Origin: Armatimonadota bacterium
GTDB taxonomy: Bacteria > Sysuimicrobiota > Sysuimicrobiia > Sysuimicrobiales > Kaftiobacteriaceae
Length of the DNA: 50,857 bases
Assembly (NCBI GenBank): GCA_031459765.1
Contig: JAVKHY010000015.1
Span: 1-50,857 of the forward strand
Reading direction: 5' to 3'
Within the stretch, counting starts at the first letter, position 1; the number at the start of each line of letters is the position of its first letter. Shown in pieces: positions 2,899 to 41,899 of this stretch. The notes under the pieces are model-generated. The model was not told where the DNA came from and ran no database searches. It saw nothing but the letters and a program-made list of their open reading frames with translations. The position numbers were made by a program, and so were the translations under genes.

Positions 2899-4013
2899 AC
2901 GGGCTGGAAGCGGCGGCCCCCGCCGCGGGGAGAGCGGCCGAACAGGCGCGGTTCCGGCGGGAGCGCCGGCGGGCGGCGCTGGCCCAGCTCGTCCGCACCG
3001 TCGGCACCGTCGTCATCGCCCTGGTGTTTGGCTTCGTCATCACGCTCTTTGTCAGCGACCGACCGGTCCAGGCCTATCTCGCGCTGCTCACCGGACCGGT
3101 GAGCAGCGCGGCGCGGGTCGGCACCTGGATCGAGGACGCCACGACGCTGACGATGCTGGGGCTCTCCATCGCCGTCGTCTTCCGCGCCCAGCAGTTCAGC
3201 CTGCTGGCCGAAGGACAGCTCTACCTGGGGGCACTGGCGGCCGGGATCATCGCCCTCAAGGTGCCGGCGCCGGCGCCCCTCCACCTGGCGATCGCCGTGC
3301 TCGGTGCGGCCGCGGCGGCCTTCGCCTTCGGCCTGATCCCCGGAGCGCTCAAAGCCTATTACGGGGCGAACGAGATTGTCTCCACCCTGATGTTGAACGT
3401 GGTCGCGGTGCGGACCTACGATCTGCTGCTGACCTACTGGCTGAAGCCGCCGGGCGCGGGGTACACCTGGTCCGATCCCTTCCCGCCGTCGGCCGTCTTC
3501 ACCCGCTTCCTCGAGGGCTCACGGATCAACACGGCGCTCTTCGTCGCCGCGGCGCTGGTCGTCCTGACCTGGTTCCTGGTCTACAAGACGCCGCTGGGGT
3601 ACGAGCTCCGCATGGTGGGCGCCAACCTGGAATTCGCGCGCTACGGCGGGATCGACGTGCGGCGCACGATCATGCTCTCCATGGCCCTGGCCGGCATTCC
3701 GGCGGGACTGGCCGGGGCGCATCTGGCCATGGGCGTCCACCAGCGTCTCCTGCTGAACATCTCGCTGGGGCTGGCCTTCGAGGGGATCGTCGTGGCCCTG
3801 ATGGCGGGCAACCACCCCCTCCTCGTGCCCCTGGCCGCGCTGCTGTACTCCTACCTGCGCATCGGGGGCGACATCATGGAACGCACCGCGGCCGTGGGGT
3901 CGGACATCGTCCGGGTGATCCAGGCCACGATTATCCTCTTCATCACGGCGGAGCTGCTGGTCGGGGTCAGCCGCCGGCGCCAGGCGCGGAGGACGGCCGA
4001 TGCCGCCGGGTGA
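2895..4013 (+). CDS. Nucleoside ABC transporter permease (NupP/YufP-like)
   Basis: Inner-membrane permease of the BMP-type importer, 372 residues. It shows about eight or nine hydrophobic segments after a charged, cytoplasmic N-terminus rich in Arg/Glu. Family landmarks are GANEIVSTLMLNVVA in the middle and GANLEFARYGGID followed by AGIPAGLAGAHLAMG near the C-terminal half, the segment expected to contact the ATPase. ATGA overlap with the ATPase gene and a 14-nt overlap with the second permease indicate tight co-translation. Specificity for nucleosides is inferred from family and context. Confidence 0.92.
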   Translation: MNGLEAAAPAAGRAAEQARFRRERRRAALAQLVRTVGTVVIALVFGFVITLFVSDRPVQAYLALLTGPVSSAARVGTWIEDATTLTMLGLSIAVVFRAQQFSLLAEGQLYLGALAAGIIALKVPAPAPLHLAIAVLGAAAAAFAFGLIPGALKAYYGANEIVSTLMLNVVAVRTYDLLLTYWLKPPGAGYTWSDPFPPSAVFTRFLEGSRINTALFVAAALVVLTWFLVYKTPLGYELRMVGANLEFARYGGIDVRRTIMLSMALAGIPAGLAGAHLAMGVHQRLLLNISLGLAFEGIVVALMAGNHPLLVPLAALLYSYLRIGGDIMERTAAVGSDIVRVIQATIILFITAELLVGVSRRRQARRTADAAG

Positions 4014-26215: not shown

Positions 26216-26520
26216 CGGCGCGGCCAGAGCCGATCGACCAGGAGTCCCCCGGCCACGCCCACACCGTTGACGACAAGGTCGATGCTTTCCGCGGACCGGT
26301 AGGGCAGCGCCCACTGCACGGCCTCGATCAGGGCCCCGTACCCCCAGGCCAGGAGCACCGCCGGTCCGACCCGCTGCCATCGCCTCAGCAGCAGGACGAA
26401 GATCCCATAGCCGAGCAGGTGCCCGAGCACGCCGCCCTGCCCGCCCAGCGTCGGAGGGAGCACCGAGACGACCAGAAGCAGGACCATCCAAATCCCGCTC
26501 GCCCAACGCCACACCCTCAT
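26188..26520 (-). CDS. VanZ-like membrane protein
   Basis: A 110-residue protein with four hydrophobic segments resembling the VanZ-like family (MRVWRWASGIWMVLLLVVSV, then GHLLGYGIFVLLL, GYGALIEAVQ and SIDLVVNGVGVAGGLL). The LIEAVQ...R...D.xxN pattern is the family core. Function of such short VanZ-like proteins is unknown outside glycopeptide resistance. The start at 26520 overlaps the aminotransferase stop by 4 nt, so it is the third gene of the selenoprotein-aminotransferase operon. Confidence 0.75.
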   Translation of the reverse strand: MRVWRWASGIWMVLLLVVSVLPPTLGGQGGVLGHLLGYGIFVLLLRRWQRVGPAVLLAWGYGALIEAVQWALPYRSAESIDLVVNGVGVAGGLLVDRLWPRRQVSSSTTS

Positions 26521-27677
26521 TCCAGGAAGAACCGCTGGCAGGCCGCGACGCCGGCCCCCGTGGGTACCTCGATCCCGGCGACCTCCATCGCCATCTCCAC
26601 GCCGGCAATCGTCGCCAGCGCTTCGAGCTCGTTGAGCGCGCCGAGATGGCCGATGCGGATGACGCGGCCGCGCAGACGGCCCAACCCCGTGCCCAGCGAC
26701 AGGTGATAGCGGGACTCGGCGATGCGCAACACCCTGTCGGCATCGGCGCCCTCCGGCAGCACCACGGCGGTCAGCGTGTTGCTGTACTCGGCGGGATTCC
26801 GGCAGAAGATCGGCAGGTTCCAGGCGCGCACCGCCCGGCGGACTCCCTCCGCGAGCCGCCGGTGGCGGGCAAAGACCTGCGGCAGCCCTTCCTCGTTGAG
26901 CATGCGCACCGCCTCGCGGAGCCCGTAGAGCATCAGCGTGGCCGGCGTGTAGGGAAAGTAGCCGCGCCGCATCTCGGCGAGAACCGGCCGCCAGTCGAAG
27001 AAGTGACGCGGAGTGCGCACCTCCTCGGCGCGGGCCAGGGCCCGCGGGCTCACGCACAGCACCGCCATCCCCGGCGGGAGCATCAGCCCTTTCTGCGTCC
27101 CGGCCAGGGCCACGTCCACCCCCCATTCGTCGAAGCGGAACTCGATGCTGGCCAGCGCGCTGACCACGTCCACCAGGAGCAGCGCCGGGTGCTTCGCCGC
27201 GTCGATCGCCCGCCGAAGCGAGCGCAGGTCGGACGTCACGCCGGTGGAGGTCTCGTTGTACACGACCAGGACGGCGGCATAGCTGTGTCCGCGGTCGGCC
27301 TTCAGGCGCTCTTCGACCACCGCCGCGGGAACGCCCTCCTCCCAGGGCAGCTCCAGCTCGTCCACCTGCATGCCGTGGTGCCGGGCGCATTCCGCGAAGG
27401 CGTGACTGAAGTATCCGGTGTTGAAGGCCAGGACCCGGTCGCCGGGATTCACGGTGTTGACGATGGCCGCTTCCGTCGCCCCCGTGCCTGACGCCGGAAA
27501 CAGCACGACCTGCCCGTCGTCGCTCTGGAAGAGCCCCTTGAGCCCGGCGGTGACCTCCCGGACGAGCGGGGGCAGCTCGGAACCGCGGTGATCGGGCACG
27601 GCGCGGTCCATCGCGCGCAAAATGCGTTCGGGCACGTTCGTGGGACCGGGGATCTGCAAAAAGTGGCGCCCGGGCAT
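26517..27677 (-). CDS. Serine/alanine-glyoxylate aminotransferase family protein (class V)
   Basis: A 386-residue PLP enzyme of the SPT/AGT group. It shows the N-terminal IPGPTNVPERILRAM, SGTGATEAAIVNTVNPGD, the Asp of VDVVSALASIEFRFDEW that holds the pyridine nitrogen, and the PLP lysine in AGTQKGLMLPPG. The RYHLSLGTGLGRLRGRVIRIGHLG segment near the end holds the substrate carboxylate-binding Arg. It likely transfers the amino group of serine or alanine to glyoxylate, or desulfurates/aminates purine-derived intermediates such as ureidoglycine in related enzymes. It starts 2 nt after the stop of the SelW-like gene and overlaps the VanZ-like gene. Confidence 0.9.
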   Translation of the reverse strand: MPGRHFLQIPGPTNVPERILRAMDRAVPDHRGSELPPLVREVTAGLKGLFQSDDGQVVLFPASGTGATEAAIVNTVNPGDRVLAFNTGYFSHAFAECARHHGMQVDELELPWEEGVPAAVVEERLKADRGHSYAAVLVVYNETSTGVTSDLRSLRRAIDAAKHPALLLVDVVSALASIEFRFDEWGVDVALAGTQKGLMLPPGMAVLCVSPRALARAEEVRTPRHFFDWRPVLAEMRRGYFPYTPATLMLYGLREAVRMLNEEGLPQVFARHRRLAEGVRRAVRAWNLPIFCRNPAEYSNTLTAVVLPEGADADRVLRIAESRYHLSLGTGLGRLRGRVIRIGHLGALNELEALATIAGVEMAMEVAGIEVPTGAGVAACQRFFLE

Positions 27678-27679
27678 GG

Positions 27680-27925
27680 CTAGATTACCTGGGCCACCAG
27701 ACGCGTCGCTTCTCCCGGCTGGGGGAACCGGCCGAGCGTCTTCTTGTCGAAGATCGGTATGTCCCCCACCAGGACGACGAACCGCCCTCCGGAGCTCGGC
27801 ACGATCGTCAGGGCGGCGATCCGCTCACCGTGGTCGGCCAGGATCTCCGCCGCCACACGGGCGGCGTGGTCTTCATATCCTCATTCCGCGCAGTACTCGA
27901 TCTGGACGCGCACCTTCGACGCCAT
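27680..27925 (-). CDS. SelW/Rdx-family selenoprotein with in-frame UGA (CxxU)
   Basis: An 81-residue Rdx (SelW/SelT/SelH) family redox protein whose fifteenth codon is TGA (27883-27881), in the exact place of the second residue of the redox motif: IEYCAEU-GYEDHAARVA. Read through as selenocysteine, the frame continues without interruption to TAG, with family landmarks VPSSGGRFVVLVGD, IFDKK and GRFPQPGEATRLV at normal spacing and length. A hairpin starting 14 nt after the UGA fits a bacterial SECIS. The ATG at 27925 lacks a clear ribosome binding site; TTG 27934, with GGTGA 6 nt upstream, is an alternative. Two nucleotides separate it from the aminotransferase gene. Readthrough needs SelB and tRNA-Sec, not in this window. 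Confidence 0.85.
27848..27866 (-). promoter_or_regulatory. Putative bacterial SECIS element
   Basis: On the message strand, arms CGCCGCC and GGCGGCG form a perfect 7-bp stem closed by the 5-nt loop CGUGU. The loop begins 21 nt after the in-frame UGA, and a G is among its first two nucleotides. Both features agree with the known bacterial SECIS pattern recognised by SelB. Identification is by pattern only; GC-rich coding sequence forms many hairpins. Confidence 0.6.
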
Positions 27926-27999
27926 GGTGAACAAATGGATTCACCGCAAAGGCGCCGAATTCATCTTTCCACTTCCTCGCGACCGCCGGAGGCATCGCC

Positions 28000-28368
28000 A
28001 TGACCCTGTCCACCATCGGCCAGATCGCCGTCCACGTCAACGATCTCGAGCGGGCCGTCCAGTTCTACCGTGACCGCCTGGGAATGCGATTCCTGTTCCA
28101 GGCGCCGCCCGGGCTGGCGTTCTTCGACGCGGGAGGCGTGCGGCTGATGCTCAGCCGGCCGGAAGGCCGCTCGGGCGGCACGTCGATCCTCTACTTCAAG
28201 GTGGACGACATCCAGGCCACGGCGGCGACGCTGCGTTCGCGCGACGTGCGGTTCACGGACGAGCCGCACGTCATCGCCAGGATGGACACCTACGACCTGT
28301 GGATGGCGTTCTTCCAGGACTCGGAGGGCAACACCCACGCCCTGATGGCCGAGGTGCCCCGGGCGTAG
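28000..28368 (+). CDS. VOC-family (glyoxalase/bleomycin resistance/dioxygenase fold) protein
   Basis: A 122-residue single VOC module with the two beta-alpha-beta-beta-beta repeats. The first repeat is IGQIAVHVNDLERAVQFYRDRLGM and the second begins LYFKVDDIQATAATLRSR and ends MAFFQDSEGNTHALM. Metal-ligand positions of glyoxalase I appear as His11-region (IAVHV) and Glu in DSEGN. A GGAGG box lies upstream of ATG 28000. The substrate is unknown; glyoxalase, fosfomycin-type or epimerase functions cannot be separated on sequence. Confidence 0.85.
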   Translation: MTLSTIGQIAVHVNDLERAVQFYRDRLGMRFLFQAPPGLAFFDAGGVRLMLSRPEGRSGGTSILYFKVDDIQATAATLRSRDVRFTDEPHVIARMDTYDLWMAFFQDSEGNTHALMAEVPRA

Positions 28369-28604
28369 CGGTCGGAGCCGCCGCAGCGCACGCGGAGGGC
28401 GGAAGTCATCACATGGGAGCGGGCGACTGGCTGTAGGCTCGCGGCCGGAGATTGCTTCAGAGCGAGGCGGTTGCCCAAAGCGCACGGAACACACCAAGCG
28501 GTCGGATCCGCGACTCCCTTCTAAAATCCATGGCCCGCCCGATTCTCATCGATGGGCCGCCTGATTACCACGACCTTCGCGCCGGTGCAGAATGGGAGTG
28601 GACG

Positions 28605-29087
28605 ATGGGTGCCGCGGCCAGCCCTGAGGCGATCGTTGCTCGCTGGCCCAACAGGGCCGAATACCTCATCGCTATTCTCCAGGAGATTCAACGCGAGTGT
28701 CATTACCTGCCGGAAACGGCACTCCGTGCGGTGGCGCGCCGGCTGCGGGTGCCGCTGACCGAGGTCTTCCACGTCGCCACGTTCTACAACTGCTTCAGTC
28801 TCGAGCCCGTCGGCAGACACCTGGTGCAGGTCTGTCTCGGCACCGCGTGCCACGTGCGAGGGGCACCGCGTGTGCTCGACCGCCTGCTGCGCGAGCTGAA
28901 GCTGGAAGTCCCGGGGACCACGCAGGATTTGGAATTCACCGTCCGCACGGTCCGCTGCATCGGGTGCTGCGGGCTGGCTCCGGTGGTGCGGGTGGATACG
29001 GACACCCACCCGCACCTGACCCAGATCAAGGTGCCCGGCCTGCTCAGGAAGTACCGCCGCCAGGCCGTGGCGCGGGCAGCGGGGTAA
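28605..29087 (+). CDS. NuoE/HydC-like [2Fe-2S] subunit of an NAD-linked oxidoreductase
   Basis: A thioredoxin-like [2Fe-2S] protein of 160 residues. The N-terminal helical part (EYLIAILQEIQRECHYLPE, VPLTEVFHVATFYNCF) and the four cluster cysteines (VCLGTACHVRG and VRCIGCCGLAP, a C-x4-C plus C-x3-C pattern) are typical of NuoE, HydC and HoxE. ATG 28605 is chosen because GGGAGTGG lies about 6 nt upstream and NuoE proteins start here; ATG 28530 and TTG 28452 would add long, unconserved extensions. It is the first of four closely spaced genes (gaps of 13, 10 and 12 nt) ending with a glutamate-synthase-like protein. The upstream 236 nt (28369-28604) hold no gene that I can support. Confidence 0.9.
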   Translation: MGAAASPEAIVARWPNRAEYLIAILQEIQRECHYLPETALRAVARRLRVPLTEVFHVATFYNCFSLEPVGRHLVQVCLGTACHVRGAPRVLDRLLRELKLEVPGTTQDLEFTVRTVRCIGCCGLAPVVRVDTDTHPHLTQIKVPGLLRKYRRQAVARAAG

Positions 29088-29100
29088 GGCGAGCGCGACG

Positions 29101-30954
29101 GTGCCCAGACTGCGGACGATCGAAGACCTGGAAGCCTACAGGGCCGCCTGCCTGGCCGCCCGCGATCCCGCCCGGCCCTGTCTCACCGTCTGCGCCGGCA
29201 GCGGCTGCACCGCCGCCGGCGCCCCCGCGGTGCTGGCCGCGTTGGAGAAAGCGCTCGCCCGCGCCGGCCTGCAGGCTTCGGTGGACCTGAAGAGCACCGG
29301 ATGCCACGGCTTTTGCGAGCGCGGGCCGATCATGCTGGTCTGGCCCGAGGGCATCTTCTACAACCGCGTCGCCCCTCGCGACGCCCCCGAGGTGGTGGCC
29401 AGTGTGACGAACGGCGGCCGGCCCGTCGAGCGCCTCCTCTATCAGGATCCGACGACGGGCCGGCGGGCGCTGCGCGAGGACGATGTGCCCTTCTACGCCC
29501 GCCAGCAGCGCATCCTGTTGGGCAACAACGGAAAGATCAATCCCAAGGTCATCGAGGATTACCTCTGTGTGGGCGGCTACGCGGCGCTGGCGCGCGCCCT
29601 CTCCACGTTGACGCCGGCGGAGGTGGTGGATTGGGTGACGCGGTCGGGGCTCCGCGGCCGGGGCGGGGCCGGCTTCCCCACCGGAATGAAGTGGGCGCTG
29701 ATGCGCCGGCAGCAGGGCACCCCGAAATACATCATCTGCAACGCCGACGAAGGCGATCCCGGCGCCTTCATGGACCGCAGCCTGCTCGAAGGCAATCCGC
29801 ACAGCGTCATCGAGGGCATGATCATCGGTGCGTACGCCCTGGGAGCAAGTGACGGCTTCATCTACGTGCGTGCCGAATACCCGCTGGCGGTCGAGCACCT
29901 CCAGGTGGCATTGCGGCAGGCCGAGGAGTACGGGCTCCTGGGAGACGGCATTCTCGGCACGACCCTGCGGTTCCGCATCCGTCTCGTGCAGGGGGCCGGT
30001 GCCTTTGTCTGCGGCGAGGAGACCGCCCTGATCCGCTCCCTCGAAGGCCGCGTAGGGGAGCCCACGCCGCGGCCCCCCTATCCCGCCGAGCAGGGCCTGT
30101 GGGGGAAGCCGACCGTCATCAACAATGTGAAGACCTGGGCCAGCGTCCCGGTGATCATCACCCGGACGCCCGAGTGGTACGCCGCCATCGGCACCGAGCG
30201 CAGCAAAGGGACGATGATCTTCTCCCTCGTGGGCAAGATCAACAACACCGGCCTGGTGGAGATCCCCATGGGGATCACCCTGCGGGAGATGATCTACGAG
30301 ATCGGTGGAGGCATCCCGGGCGGCAGACGGCTTAAGGCCGTCCAGATCGGGGGCCCATCGGGCGGCTGCCTTCCGGCCAGTCTCATCGACCTCCCCATCG
30401 ACTACGAGACGCTGACCGAGGCCGGCTCCATGATGGGATCGGGCGGCATGGTGGTCATGGACGACGCCACCTGCATGGTGGATGTGGCTCGCTACTTCAT
30501 GGAGTTCCTGGAGGAAGAATCCTGCGGCAAATGCTTCCCCTGCCGGAAAGGAACCCAGCGCCTTCGTGAGATTCTCACCCGCATCGCGCAGGGGAAAGGC
30601 CGCGAGGAGGACCTGCCCCTGCTGGAAGACCTGGGCTGGCTGGTGCGCGAAACCTCGCTCTGCGGCCTCGGCCAGACCGCGCCCAATCCTGTGCTCACCA
30701 CCCTGCGCTACTTTCGCGACGAATACCTGGCCCACATCCGCGAGAAACGCTGTCCGGCCAAGGTCTGCCGCGCCCTCATCACGTACGCCATCGAGCCGGC
30801 GCTCTGCGACGGCTGCCACGCCTGCACGCGGGTGTGCAGCACCGACGCCATCCGGGGGGAGAAGGACGAGGTCCACACCATTGACCAGACCCGGTGCATC
30901 AAATGCGGCGCGTGCCTGGAAGTCTGCCAGCCGCATGCGGTGGTGGTGACGTGA
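29101..30954 (+). CDS. NuoF/HydB-like NADH- and FMN-binding flavoprotein with extra Fe-S domains
   Basis: A 617-residue diaphorase subunit. Order of domains: N-terminal thioredoxin-like [2Fe-2S] module (CAGSGC and CHGFC, residues 31-70), NuoF core with NADH site (GLRGRGGAGFPTGMKW) and FMN site (NADEGDPGAFMDR), SLBB region, [4Fe-4S] motif (SCGKCFPCRKGT plus a later Cys in SLCGLGQTAPNP), and a C-terminal two-[4Fe-4S] ferredoxin (CDGCHACTRVC and CIKCGACLEVC). This layout is that of HydB of HydABC-type hydrogenases and related formate-dehydrogenase beta subunits, some of which bifurcate electrons between NAD and ferredoxin. Start is GTG 29101. There is no hydrogenase or formate dehydrogenase catalytic gene in the operon. 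Confidence 0.93.
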   Translation: MPRLRTIEDLEAYRAACLAARDPARPCLTVCAGSGCTAAGAPAVLAALEKALARAGLQASVDLKSTGCHGFCERGPIMLVWPEGIFYNRVAPRDAPEVVASVTNGGRPVERLLYQDPTTGRRALREDDVPFYARQQRILLGNNGKINPKVIEDYLCVGGYAALARALSTLTPAEVVDWVTRSGLRGRGGAGFPTGMKWALMRRQQGTPKYIICNADEGDPGAFMDRSLLEGNPHSVIEGMIIGAYALGASDGFIYVRAEYPLAVEHLQVALRQAEEYGLLGDGILGTTLRFRIRLVQGAGAFVCGEETALIRSLEGRVGEPTPRPPYPAEQGLWGKPTVINNVKTWASVPVIITRTPEWYAAIGTERSKGTMIFSLVGKINNTGLVEIPMGITLREMIYEIGGGIPGGRRLKAVQIGGPSGGCLPASLIDLPIDYETLTEAGSMMGSGGMVVMDDATCMVDVARYFMEFLEEESCGKCFPCRKGTQRLREILTRIAQGKGREEDLPLLEDLGWLVRETSLCGLGQTAPNPVLTTLRYFRDEYLAHIREKRCPAKVCRALITYAIEPALCDGCHACTRVCSTDAIRGEKDEVHTIDQTRCIKCGACLEVCQPHAVVVT

Positions 30955-30964
30955 GGAGCAGGGT

Positions 30965-31687
30965 ATGCCCAGGGTGACCATCAACGGCATCGAACTCGAG
31001 GTGGAGCACGGGACAACCGTCCTGGAAGCGGCCCGCTTCCTGGGCATCCCGATTCCTGCGCTCTGCCACGATGACAGCCTGACCCCCTACGGGGCCTGTC
31101 GCCTCTGTCTGGTCGAAGTCGGCGGTCCTCCCCGCAGTCGGCTGCAGAGCGCCTGCACGCTGCCCGTCAGCGACGACCTCGTCGTCCGGACGCACTCCGC
31201 CCGCGTGGACCGCGCCCGCCGGCTGTTGCTGGAACTCTACGTGGCCACCTGCCCGCAGTCGAAAACCCTCCAGGACCTCGCCAGCCGCTACGGGGTCCGG
31301 CGGGTGCGTCTGGAGCCGGAATTTGAAGACTGCATCCAGTGCGGGAAGTGCGTGCGTATCTGCCGCGAGCAGATGATGGCGGGCGCCATCGGCTTCGCCT
31401 ACCGCGGACCTCGCCGCAGGGTGATGAGCCCCTTCCGCTGGCAATCGGATCTCTGCCGGCAGTGCGGCGCCTGCCTTCGCGTCTGCCCGGTCGTCGAGCT
31501 GCGCTGCCACGGTCCGCAGCCCGAGGCCACCCTCTGCGCCGGCTGCCTGAACTTTGCCCCCGCCTGCCTTGCCTACCATGACCAGGCGATGTGTTTTCTG
31601 GATCCCTGCGCGGCCTGCGAACTGGCCGGACCCCTGCGCCCGGATCTGGTCCGGCCGGAATCCCCGCAGGAGACGACGCGCACGTAG
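30965..31687 (+). CDS. NuoG N-terminus/HoxU-like iron-sulfur protein
   Basis: A 240-residue electron-transfer subunit. Cys34, Cys45, Cys48 and Cys63 form the plant-type [2Fe-2S] site; two [4Fe-4S] sites follow (CIQCGKCVRIC and CRQCGACLRVC). The His-Cys3 cluster usually between them in NuoG/HydA/HoxU is missing: only one Cys (ATCPQSK, residue 95) is found. The C-terminal 45 residues add six more cysteines (CAGC, PAC, AMC, CAAC), an unusual tail that may hold another cluster or partner interface. It lacks any H-cluster or molybdopterin domain. ATG 30965 follows a GAGGAGCAGGG box and the fourth gene is 12 nt downstream, so it probably links the NuoF-like flavin to the glutamate-synthase-like protein. 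Confidence 0.88.
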   Translation: MPRVTINGIELEVEHGTTVLEAARFLGIPIPALCHDDSLTPYGACRLCLVEVGGPPRSRLQSACTLPVSDDLVVRTHSARVDRARRLLLELYVATCPQSKTLQDLASRYGVRRVRLEPEFEDCIQCGKCVRICREQMMAGAIGFAYRGPRRRVMSPFRWQSDLCRQCGACLRVCPVVELRCHGPQPEATLCAGCLNFAPACLAYHDQAMCFLDPCAACELAGPLRPDLVRPESPQETTRT

Positions 31688-31699
31688 AGGAGGCGCGCC

Positions 31700-33283
31700 A
31701 TGACCTACTCCCGTCTGAACGCCTCGGCGGCCACGTTGACCAAGAACCGCACCGAGGACTCCATCAGCCCCTTCAGCGGGATGTGCACGACCTGCATCGA
31801 CGGCTGCATCGGAATGTGCGAGATCGGCAAGTCGGCCTACCGCGGGGCGGAGATGATCTACCCCCAGCCCTTTGGGATCATCACCACCGCGTCGGGCAAG
31901 AACTACCCCGTGGATCTCTCCCACTTCACGATCCTAGGGCGGGCCACCGGCGCCTGGGGCATCGAACCCGACAGCGACAAAGCGCTCTTCCCCAACGTCA
32001 ATCTCGAGGTCACCTGGGGTCGGGAGCCCGGTCTGCGCTCCAGGCTTCCCTTCCTGCTCGCCGCGCTTGGCTCGACGAACATCGCCAAGACCAACTGGGA
32101 GAGCCTGGCCATCGGCGCGGCCATATCCGGCACCTGCCTGACCGTGGGCGAAAACGTCTGCGGCATGGACCCGGGGGCGCAGATCTCCGCCGGGCGCGTG
32201 GTGTCCAGCAGCGAGCTGGAGTGGCGCATCCGCGTCTTCCGCGACTGGCAGGAAGACGGGTGGGGCGAGATCATCGTCCAGGCGAATGTGGAAGACACCA
32301 GGCTCGGTGTCCACGAATACGCCATCCGCGCCCTGGGCGTCACCGCCGTGGAGCTCAAGTGGGGCCAGGGCGCCAAGGACATCGGAGGCGAGGTCAAGAT
32401 CCGCGACCTGGAGCGGGCGCGCCTGCTCAAGCACCGCGGGTACATCGTGCTGCCCGACCCCGACCACCCGGTCGTCGTCGAGGCCTTCCGCCGCGGCAGT
32501 TTCCGCGAGTTCGAGCGTCACTCGCGCGTCGGCATGGCCAGCCGGGACGCCTTCCTGCGCCGTGTCGAGGAGCTGCGCAGGCTGGGCGCCAGGTGGGTCT
32601 TCCTGAAGACCGGGGCCTATCGCCCCGCCGACCTGGCCCGTGCCCTCAAGTGGTCCTCCGAAGCCGGGATCGACCTGCTCACCGTGGACGCCGCCGGCGG
32701 CGGGACCGGCATGAGTCCCTGGCGCATGATGAACGAGTGGGGCATCCCGGCCGTCGAGCTGCACTCGCTGCTGTACCAGTACTGCCAGCGACTGGCCCGC
32801 CAGGGGAGCTACATTCCGCCCATCGCCCTGGCCGGCGGGTTCACCTTTGAAGATCAAATCTTCAAAGGCCTGGCCCTGGTGGCACCCTACGCCAAACTGA
32901 TCGCCTGGGCGCGGGGACCGCTGGCCGCGGCTATGGTGGGCAAGACCATCGGACGGCGCATCGCGGAGGGCAGCCTGCCCGTCTACATTGAACGCTTCGG
33001 CACGACGGTCAACGAAATCTTCGTCGCCGCGCCCGAGCTGCAGGAACGCTACAAGGATCGCTTCCGCCTGATCCCCACGGGGGCCATCGGCCTCTACACC
33101 TACTACCAGCGCGTGGCCCAGGGGCTGCGGCAGCTGATGTGCGGGGCGCGCAAATTCACCCTCGCCCACATCGCCCGCGATGACATCGCCGCCCTCACCG
33201 CCGAGGCCGCGGCGGCCAGCGGCATCCCGCTGGTCTCCGAGGTCGATCGCGAGGAGGCCGAAGAGATCCTCGCGGCCGCCTGA
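31700..33283 (+). CDS. FMN-binding glutamate-synthase-like protein (GltB central/FMN domain)
   Basis: A 527-residue protein homologous to the FMN-binding synthase domain of glutamate synthase (IIVQANVEDTRLGVHEYAI, AVELKWGQGAKDIGGEVK, LTVDAAGGGTGMSPWRMM, PIALAGGFTFEDQIFKGL are barrel landmarks). It lacks the glutaminase domain, the C-terminal GXGXG domain and the usual post-barrel [3Fe-4S] cysteines. Instead an N-terminal motif Cys29, Cys32, Cys36, Cys40 could bind an Fe-S cluster. No GltD reductase is nearby; the NuoE/F/G-like genes immediately upstream would supply electrons. Archaeal-type glutamate synthases also use stand-alone domains, so glutamate synthesis is possible, but the real substrate is unproven. 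Start ATG 31700 has an AGGAGG box. Confidence 0.85.
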   Translation: MTYSRLNASAATLTKNRTEDSISPFSGMCTTCIDGCIGMCEIGKSAYRGAEMIYPQPFGIITTASGKNYPVDLSHFTILGRATGAWGIEPDSDKALFPNVNLEVTWGREPGLRSRLPFLLAALGSTNIAKTNWESLAIGAAISGTCLTVGENVCGMDPGAQISAGRVVSSSELEWRIRVFRDWQEDGWGEIIVQANVEDTRLGVHEYAIRALGVTAVELKWGQGAKDIGGEVKIRDLERARLLKHRGYIVLPDPDHPVVVEAFRRGSFREFERHSRVGMASRDAFLRRVEELRRLGARWVFLKTGAYRPADLARALKWSSEAGIDLLTVDAAGGGTGMSPWRMMNEWGIPAVELHSLLYQYCQRLARQGSYIPPIALAGGFTFEDQIFKGLALVAPYAKLIAWARGPLAAAMVGKTIGRRIAEGSLPVYIERFGTTVNEIFVAAPELQERYKDRFRLIPTGAIGLYTYYQRVAQGLRQLMCGARKFTLAHIARDDIAALTAEAAAASGIPLVSEVDREEAEEILAAA

Positions 33284-41824: not shown

Positions 41825-41899
41825 TGGAGCGGGCGATGGGATTTGAACCCACGGCCCTCGGCTTGGGAAGCCGATGCTCTACCCCTGAGCTACGCCCGC
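41825..41899 (-). tRNA. tRNA-Gly (anticodon CCC)
   Basis: A complete cloverleaf on the minus strand. The acceptor stem GCGGGCG pairs with CGCCCGC; the D-arm (GCTCAGGGGTAGAGC), the anticodon stem TCGGC/GCCGA with loop TTCCCAA (anticodon CCC), and the T-arm with GGTTCAAATCC are all present. Discriminator T and an encoded CCA end the gene. A TATAAT element lies just upstream. It follows the CoaB-like gene by 61 nt. Confidence 0.95.

Follow-up and report, generated by a model that had tools for sequence, protein, structure and literature searches.

A SelW-like selenoprotein gene with an in-frame UGA codon in a bacterium of the phylum Sysuimicrobiota

Is the UGA codon that interrupts a short minus-strand frame in this DNA read as selenocysteine (Sec), or does it end a damaged gene? 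The window, meaning the whole stretch of DNA that was analysed (50,857 nucleotides), is contig 15 of a 2.8 Mb genome that is 99% complete. The host belongs to Sysuimicrobiota, the phylum formerly called CSP1-3 (PMC11604079). A sequence-only reading had described the frame as a SelW/Rdx gene, and translation of the minus strand confirms it: the frame reads IEYC-AE-U-GYEDH, with the UGA at the redox motif, and continues to a TAG stop. The gene and its two redox codons are as follows:

27680..27925, minus strand: SelW/Rdx-family selenoprotein gene, ATG to TAG, 81 aa, Sec at residue 15 (frame, profiles, relatives and predicted fold)
27890-27892, minus strand: Cys12 codon of the SelW gene
27881..27883, minus strand: in-frame UGA read as Sec, codon 15, in the motif C12-A-E-U15 (frame and alignment of relatives)

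The SelW translation, with a single TGA in frame, is MASKVRVQIEYCAEUGYEDHAARVAAEILADHGERIAALTIVPSSGGRFVVLVGDIPIFDKKTLGRFPQPGEATRLVAQVI. The UGA lies past the first strand, at the second redox position in EYC-AE-U-GY. This is the fourth position of CxxC, so the earlier wording, the second residue of the motif, holds in the sense of the second redox residue. A comparison with SelW-type families had been proposed, and with the UGA entered as Cys the product scores 68.4 bits against Pfam Rdx (PF10262; E 6e-19, residues 6-78, cut-off 22.6) and 51.5 bits against TIGR02174 CXXU_selWTH (cut-off 34.2). Six distinct sequences of solved structures match the product, among them 3dex, 2fa8, and 2p0g, and some are named selenoprotein W-related. 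The AlphaFold model, obtained with 10 aligned sequences, has a mean pLDDT of 92.6 and a pTM of 0.81. This predicted structure aligns with 2fa8, 3dex, 2obk, 2oka, 2ojl, and 2p0g at TM 0.86-0.93, and the modelled product matches the thioredoxin-like SelW fold.

The region upstream of the gene has features of its own. A perfect 6-bp inverted repeat, GGTGAA-8 nt-TTCACC (27926-27945, minus strand), lies immediately 5′ of the SelW ATG, where relatives have a Shine-Dalgarno sequence; the gene here is without a clear one. A seven-codon upstream ORF (ATG...TGA; 27941-27964, minus strand) is in frame with SelW, just 5′ of its start. Around the SelW gene Rfam gave no relevant match, and promoter and terminator scans found nothing.

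The SelW gene is flanked by two genes:

26517..27677, minus strand: class-V aminotransferase, nearest NCBIfam model BhcA, below its cut-off
28000..28368, plus strand: divergent neighbour, VOC/glyoxalase-like (by eye)

The sequence-only reading also placed SelW and the aminotransferase in an operon. The 2-nt gap is real, with the aminotransferase ATG (27677) 2 nt past the SelW stop on the same strand, while this tight pairing is found only in this genome. Judged by its sequence, the downstream gene is a class-V aminotransferase related to BhcA. It scores 482 bits against the BhcA aspartate-glyoxylate aminotransferase model, whose equivalog cut-off is 650, and so it is given no substrate here. 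The shared strand and the narrow gap would fit a functional selenium-linked operon, for example in glyoxylate metabolism, as would the fact that three genera of the family have the two genes no more than about 3 kb apart. Such an operon is nevertheless unlikely. The pair is split in G017 (same genus), in G015, and in the genus with two Sec codons described below, where an enoyl-CoA hydratase gene and a CaiB-family gene, identified by eye from translations, stand between SelW and the aminotransferase on the opposite strand. In family f4, no such aminotransferase is found near SelW within the stretches read, and other neighbours occur there. The window lacks the enoyl-CoA hydratase and CaiB genes of the relatives, and the closest CaiB homologue in the rest of the host genome has 48% identity. 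Because the intervening pair is missing and only distant CaiB homologues are left, the tight pairing of SelW and aminotransferase is probably the result of loss, or rearrangement, in this lineage. Synteny across the relatives thus rejects a conserved SelW-aminotransferase operon, and an adjacency limited to this genome says little about SelW function.

Other features of the window and genome were noted alongside. By eye, the plus strand at 28593-33283 carries a NuoE/NuoF-like gene run, a 240-aa iron-sulfur frame, and a 527-aa FMN/glutamate-synthase-like frame. An ordinary tRNA gene (72 bits) lies at 41828-41899 on the minus strand. Two CaiB homologues with a reported internal TGA were considered as further selenoproteins; in L088, the one frame recovered, the TGA is an ordinary stop.

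The host genome contains the machinery for Sec insertion. Contig 4 carries a tRNA-Sec with the anticodon TCA (UCA; 81 bits), which immediately adjoins selB (349 bits, above cut-off), and with selA (578 bits) they form one cluster, selA-selB-tRNA-Sec(UCA). The selD gene is on contig 1 (G000:C1:351993-352913, L026; 403 bits) and has its own in-frame UGA in CAGUASK, a motif already known from Sec-containing SelD (UxxK; PMC13188914). All four components occur in the same genome and support the Sec insertion that had been implied for this organism. A lack of selB or tRNA-Sec had been named as the finding that would speak against it; both are present, together with selA and selD.

An Rdx gene is present in 19 of the 43 genomes of the order, and 24 show none; the class comprises the same 43 genomes. 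The active sites of these genes are CxxU in 16, UxxU in two, and CxxC in one. The UGA is at the second redox position in 18 of the 19, from several genera and independent assemblies. Relatives with neither Cys nor UGA at this position would also have counted against the gene, and all 19 in the order have one or the other. A search of GTDB contigs with the post-UGA part of the protein gave 13 loci, one of them in a Bacillota-labelled MAG (L077), and each has UGA at the second redox position. The recurrence of the UGA at the same position in 18 of 19 genes, with the protein kept on both sides, excludes a chance in-frame UGA. The single all-Cys gene is that of G035 (L033, G035:C3:19827-20042). 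Its genome retains selB and tRNA-Sec, so a genome that uses Sec here encodes a Cys variant of the Rdx protein, and the hairpin scan found no qualifying bacterial SECIS (bSECIS) hairpin in this gene.

The Sec-encoding gene of the window has a hairpin past its UGA:

27848..27866, minus strand: putative bacterial SECIS hairpin CGCCGCC-CGUGU-GGCGGCG (folding and conservation among relatives)

It consists of a 7-bp stem and a 5-nt loop, CGUGU, with -13.3 kcal/mol; it begins 14 nt past the UGA, and the apical loop is at 21 nt. The published rules ask for a loop of 3-9 nt, a stem of 4-16 bp, a G in the first two loop positions, a spacing of 16-37 nt, and an MFE of at most -7.5 kcal/mol (PMC13188914), and the SelW hairpin satisfies them. 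A hairpin that passes these rules follows 188 of the 1064 TGA triplets in the window (18%); by itself the hairpin is therefore weak evidence, and the weight is put on its conservation. The consensus GCCG[C/U]CCG[U/G]GUG[G/A]CGG occurs past the UGA in all CxxU and UxxU genes except L048 (G042), a distant CxxU relative in which the hairpin is shifted by 4 nt and has the loop CGUGA. Across 17 genes, synonymous identity is 0.88-1.0 at codons +6 to +10 past the UGA, compared with 0.2-0.7 for most other codons. For the Arg at +8, 16 of the 17 genes use CGT, a rare codon that encodes 7.8% of the Arg residues in neighbouring genes of the window. The 5-bp hairpin core is kept in all 18 distinct sequences. 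One of its pairs varies as C-G, U-G, and U-A and is never broken, accompanied by the amino-acid changes AARVA, AVRVA, and AVRVT; covariation support is thin, as only this one of five core pairs varies. In family f4, the uninterrupted part of the upper stem measures 5 bp and does not reach the -7.5 kcal/mol limit in the strict scan.

A pseudogene or sequencing error, in which a Cys codon was mutated or miscalled to TGA and the product truncated, would take a single point change from TGC or TGT, and a Cys form does exist in G035. This is very improbable, given the same TGA in 18 genes from independent assemblies and several genera with the protein intact on both sides, the full Sec machinery of the genome, and the synonymous constraint where the SECIS should lie. 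Genome-wide reassignment of UGA to Cys, Trp, or another residue would likewise leave the frame open and is the least probable reading, as TGA terminates other genes (for example, a CaiB homologue of the host genome), some relatives' Rdx genes seem to end in TGA, and a dedicated tRNA-Sec with a UCA anticodon, SelA, SelB, and SelD are present.

Decoding of the UGA as Sec is well supported by the family, the Sec machinery, the conserved UGA, and the constrained SECIS. With a probability of roughly 96%, positions 27680-27925 (minus strand) are a functional gene for a SelW-like selenoprotein of the Rdx family in a Sysuimicrobiota (CSP1-3) bacterium, and its UGA codon 15 is decoded as Sec; Sec incorporation and redox activity are what we infer from this evidence. 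SelB carrying Sec-tRNA(UCA) would decode codon 15, and it would be recruited by the hairpin whose start lies 14 nt past the UGA. The product would be a thioredoxin-fold redox protein acting as a cytosolic oxidoreductase, and its Cys12-x-x-Sec15 pair probably cycles between the thiol/selenol and selenenylsulfide states.

The most interesting lead, and the novel part of the findings, is a double-Sec relative of this gene, found outside the window. The motif EYUAEUEY, with two in-frame UGAs, occurs in three MAG records (L072; L073 of G019; L074 of G020) from sister genus g5 or close to it:

L072:623-859, plus strand: UxxU SelW gene, EYUAEUEY
L073, about 3030-3266, plus strand: UxxU SelW gene, EYUAEUEY
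L074:1875-2111, plus strand: UxxU SelW gene, EYUAEUEY

A search for the UxxU pattern in the 43 genomes found only G019 and G020, and the reversed control gave no match. The UxxU genes have a shared hairpin 21 and 30 nt from their two UGAs, both within 16-37 nt, and a further TGA appears to serve as their stop. In G019, tRNA-Sec(UCA) and a selB fragment share a contig, and G020 has a full selB. It is likely that one phylum comprises SelW active sites of the forms CxxC (G035), CxxU (the window gene and most relatives), and UxxU (L072-L074). The last would be a bacterial diselenide-type SelW with two UGAs six bases apart, one hairpin serving both, and an mRNA apparently ending in a UGA stop. This series is natural material for asking what a second selenium buys, and the UxxU genes offer a test of how a single bacterial SECIS serves two nearby UGAs when another, third UGA of that mRNA acts as terminator.

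Of the selenoproteins known from bacteria, SelW-like CxxU proteins are among the most frequent. The window gene is a well-supported SelW-like selenoprotein gene that is ordinary in kind and apparently not yet described for its phylum; no paper on CSP1-3 together with a selenoprotein was found among the open-access papers searched. It identifies an uncultured phylum as one that uses Sec, with the whole machinery and no fewer than two selenoproteins (SelW and SelD), and standard annotation is likely to miss the gene. The gene agrees with the prokaryotic SELENOW-like selenoprotein (PF10262, CxxU, one Sec; PMC13188914 Table 1, PMC9312934, PMC1088965) in family, length, motif, and a bSECIS just downstream of the UGA. 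The two also share the dominance of the Sec form, which outnumbers the Cys form of SelW-like proteins in Sec-using organisms (PMC1794560). The window gene differs in its host phylum, Sysuimicrobiota, and is otherwise ordinary. The solved bacterial Rdx proteins compared above have the same fold as the SelW model at 26-40% identity. Reviews give only CxxU, with a single Sec, as the motif of prokaryotic SELENOW-like proteins (PMC13188914, PMC9312934), and no report of a bacterial UxxU SelW was found among the open-access papers searched. The same double-Sec motif as in L072-L074 has been reported for the UxxU-type SELENOW of amphioxus and Ostreococcus lucimarinus (PMC7539508), from which the window gene, being CxxU, differs. 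In the bacterial UxxU genes a single in-frame hairpin of bacterial type serves both UGAs, in contrast to the 3′-UTR element of eukaryotic UxxU SELENOW.
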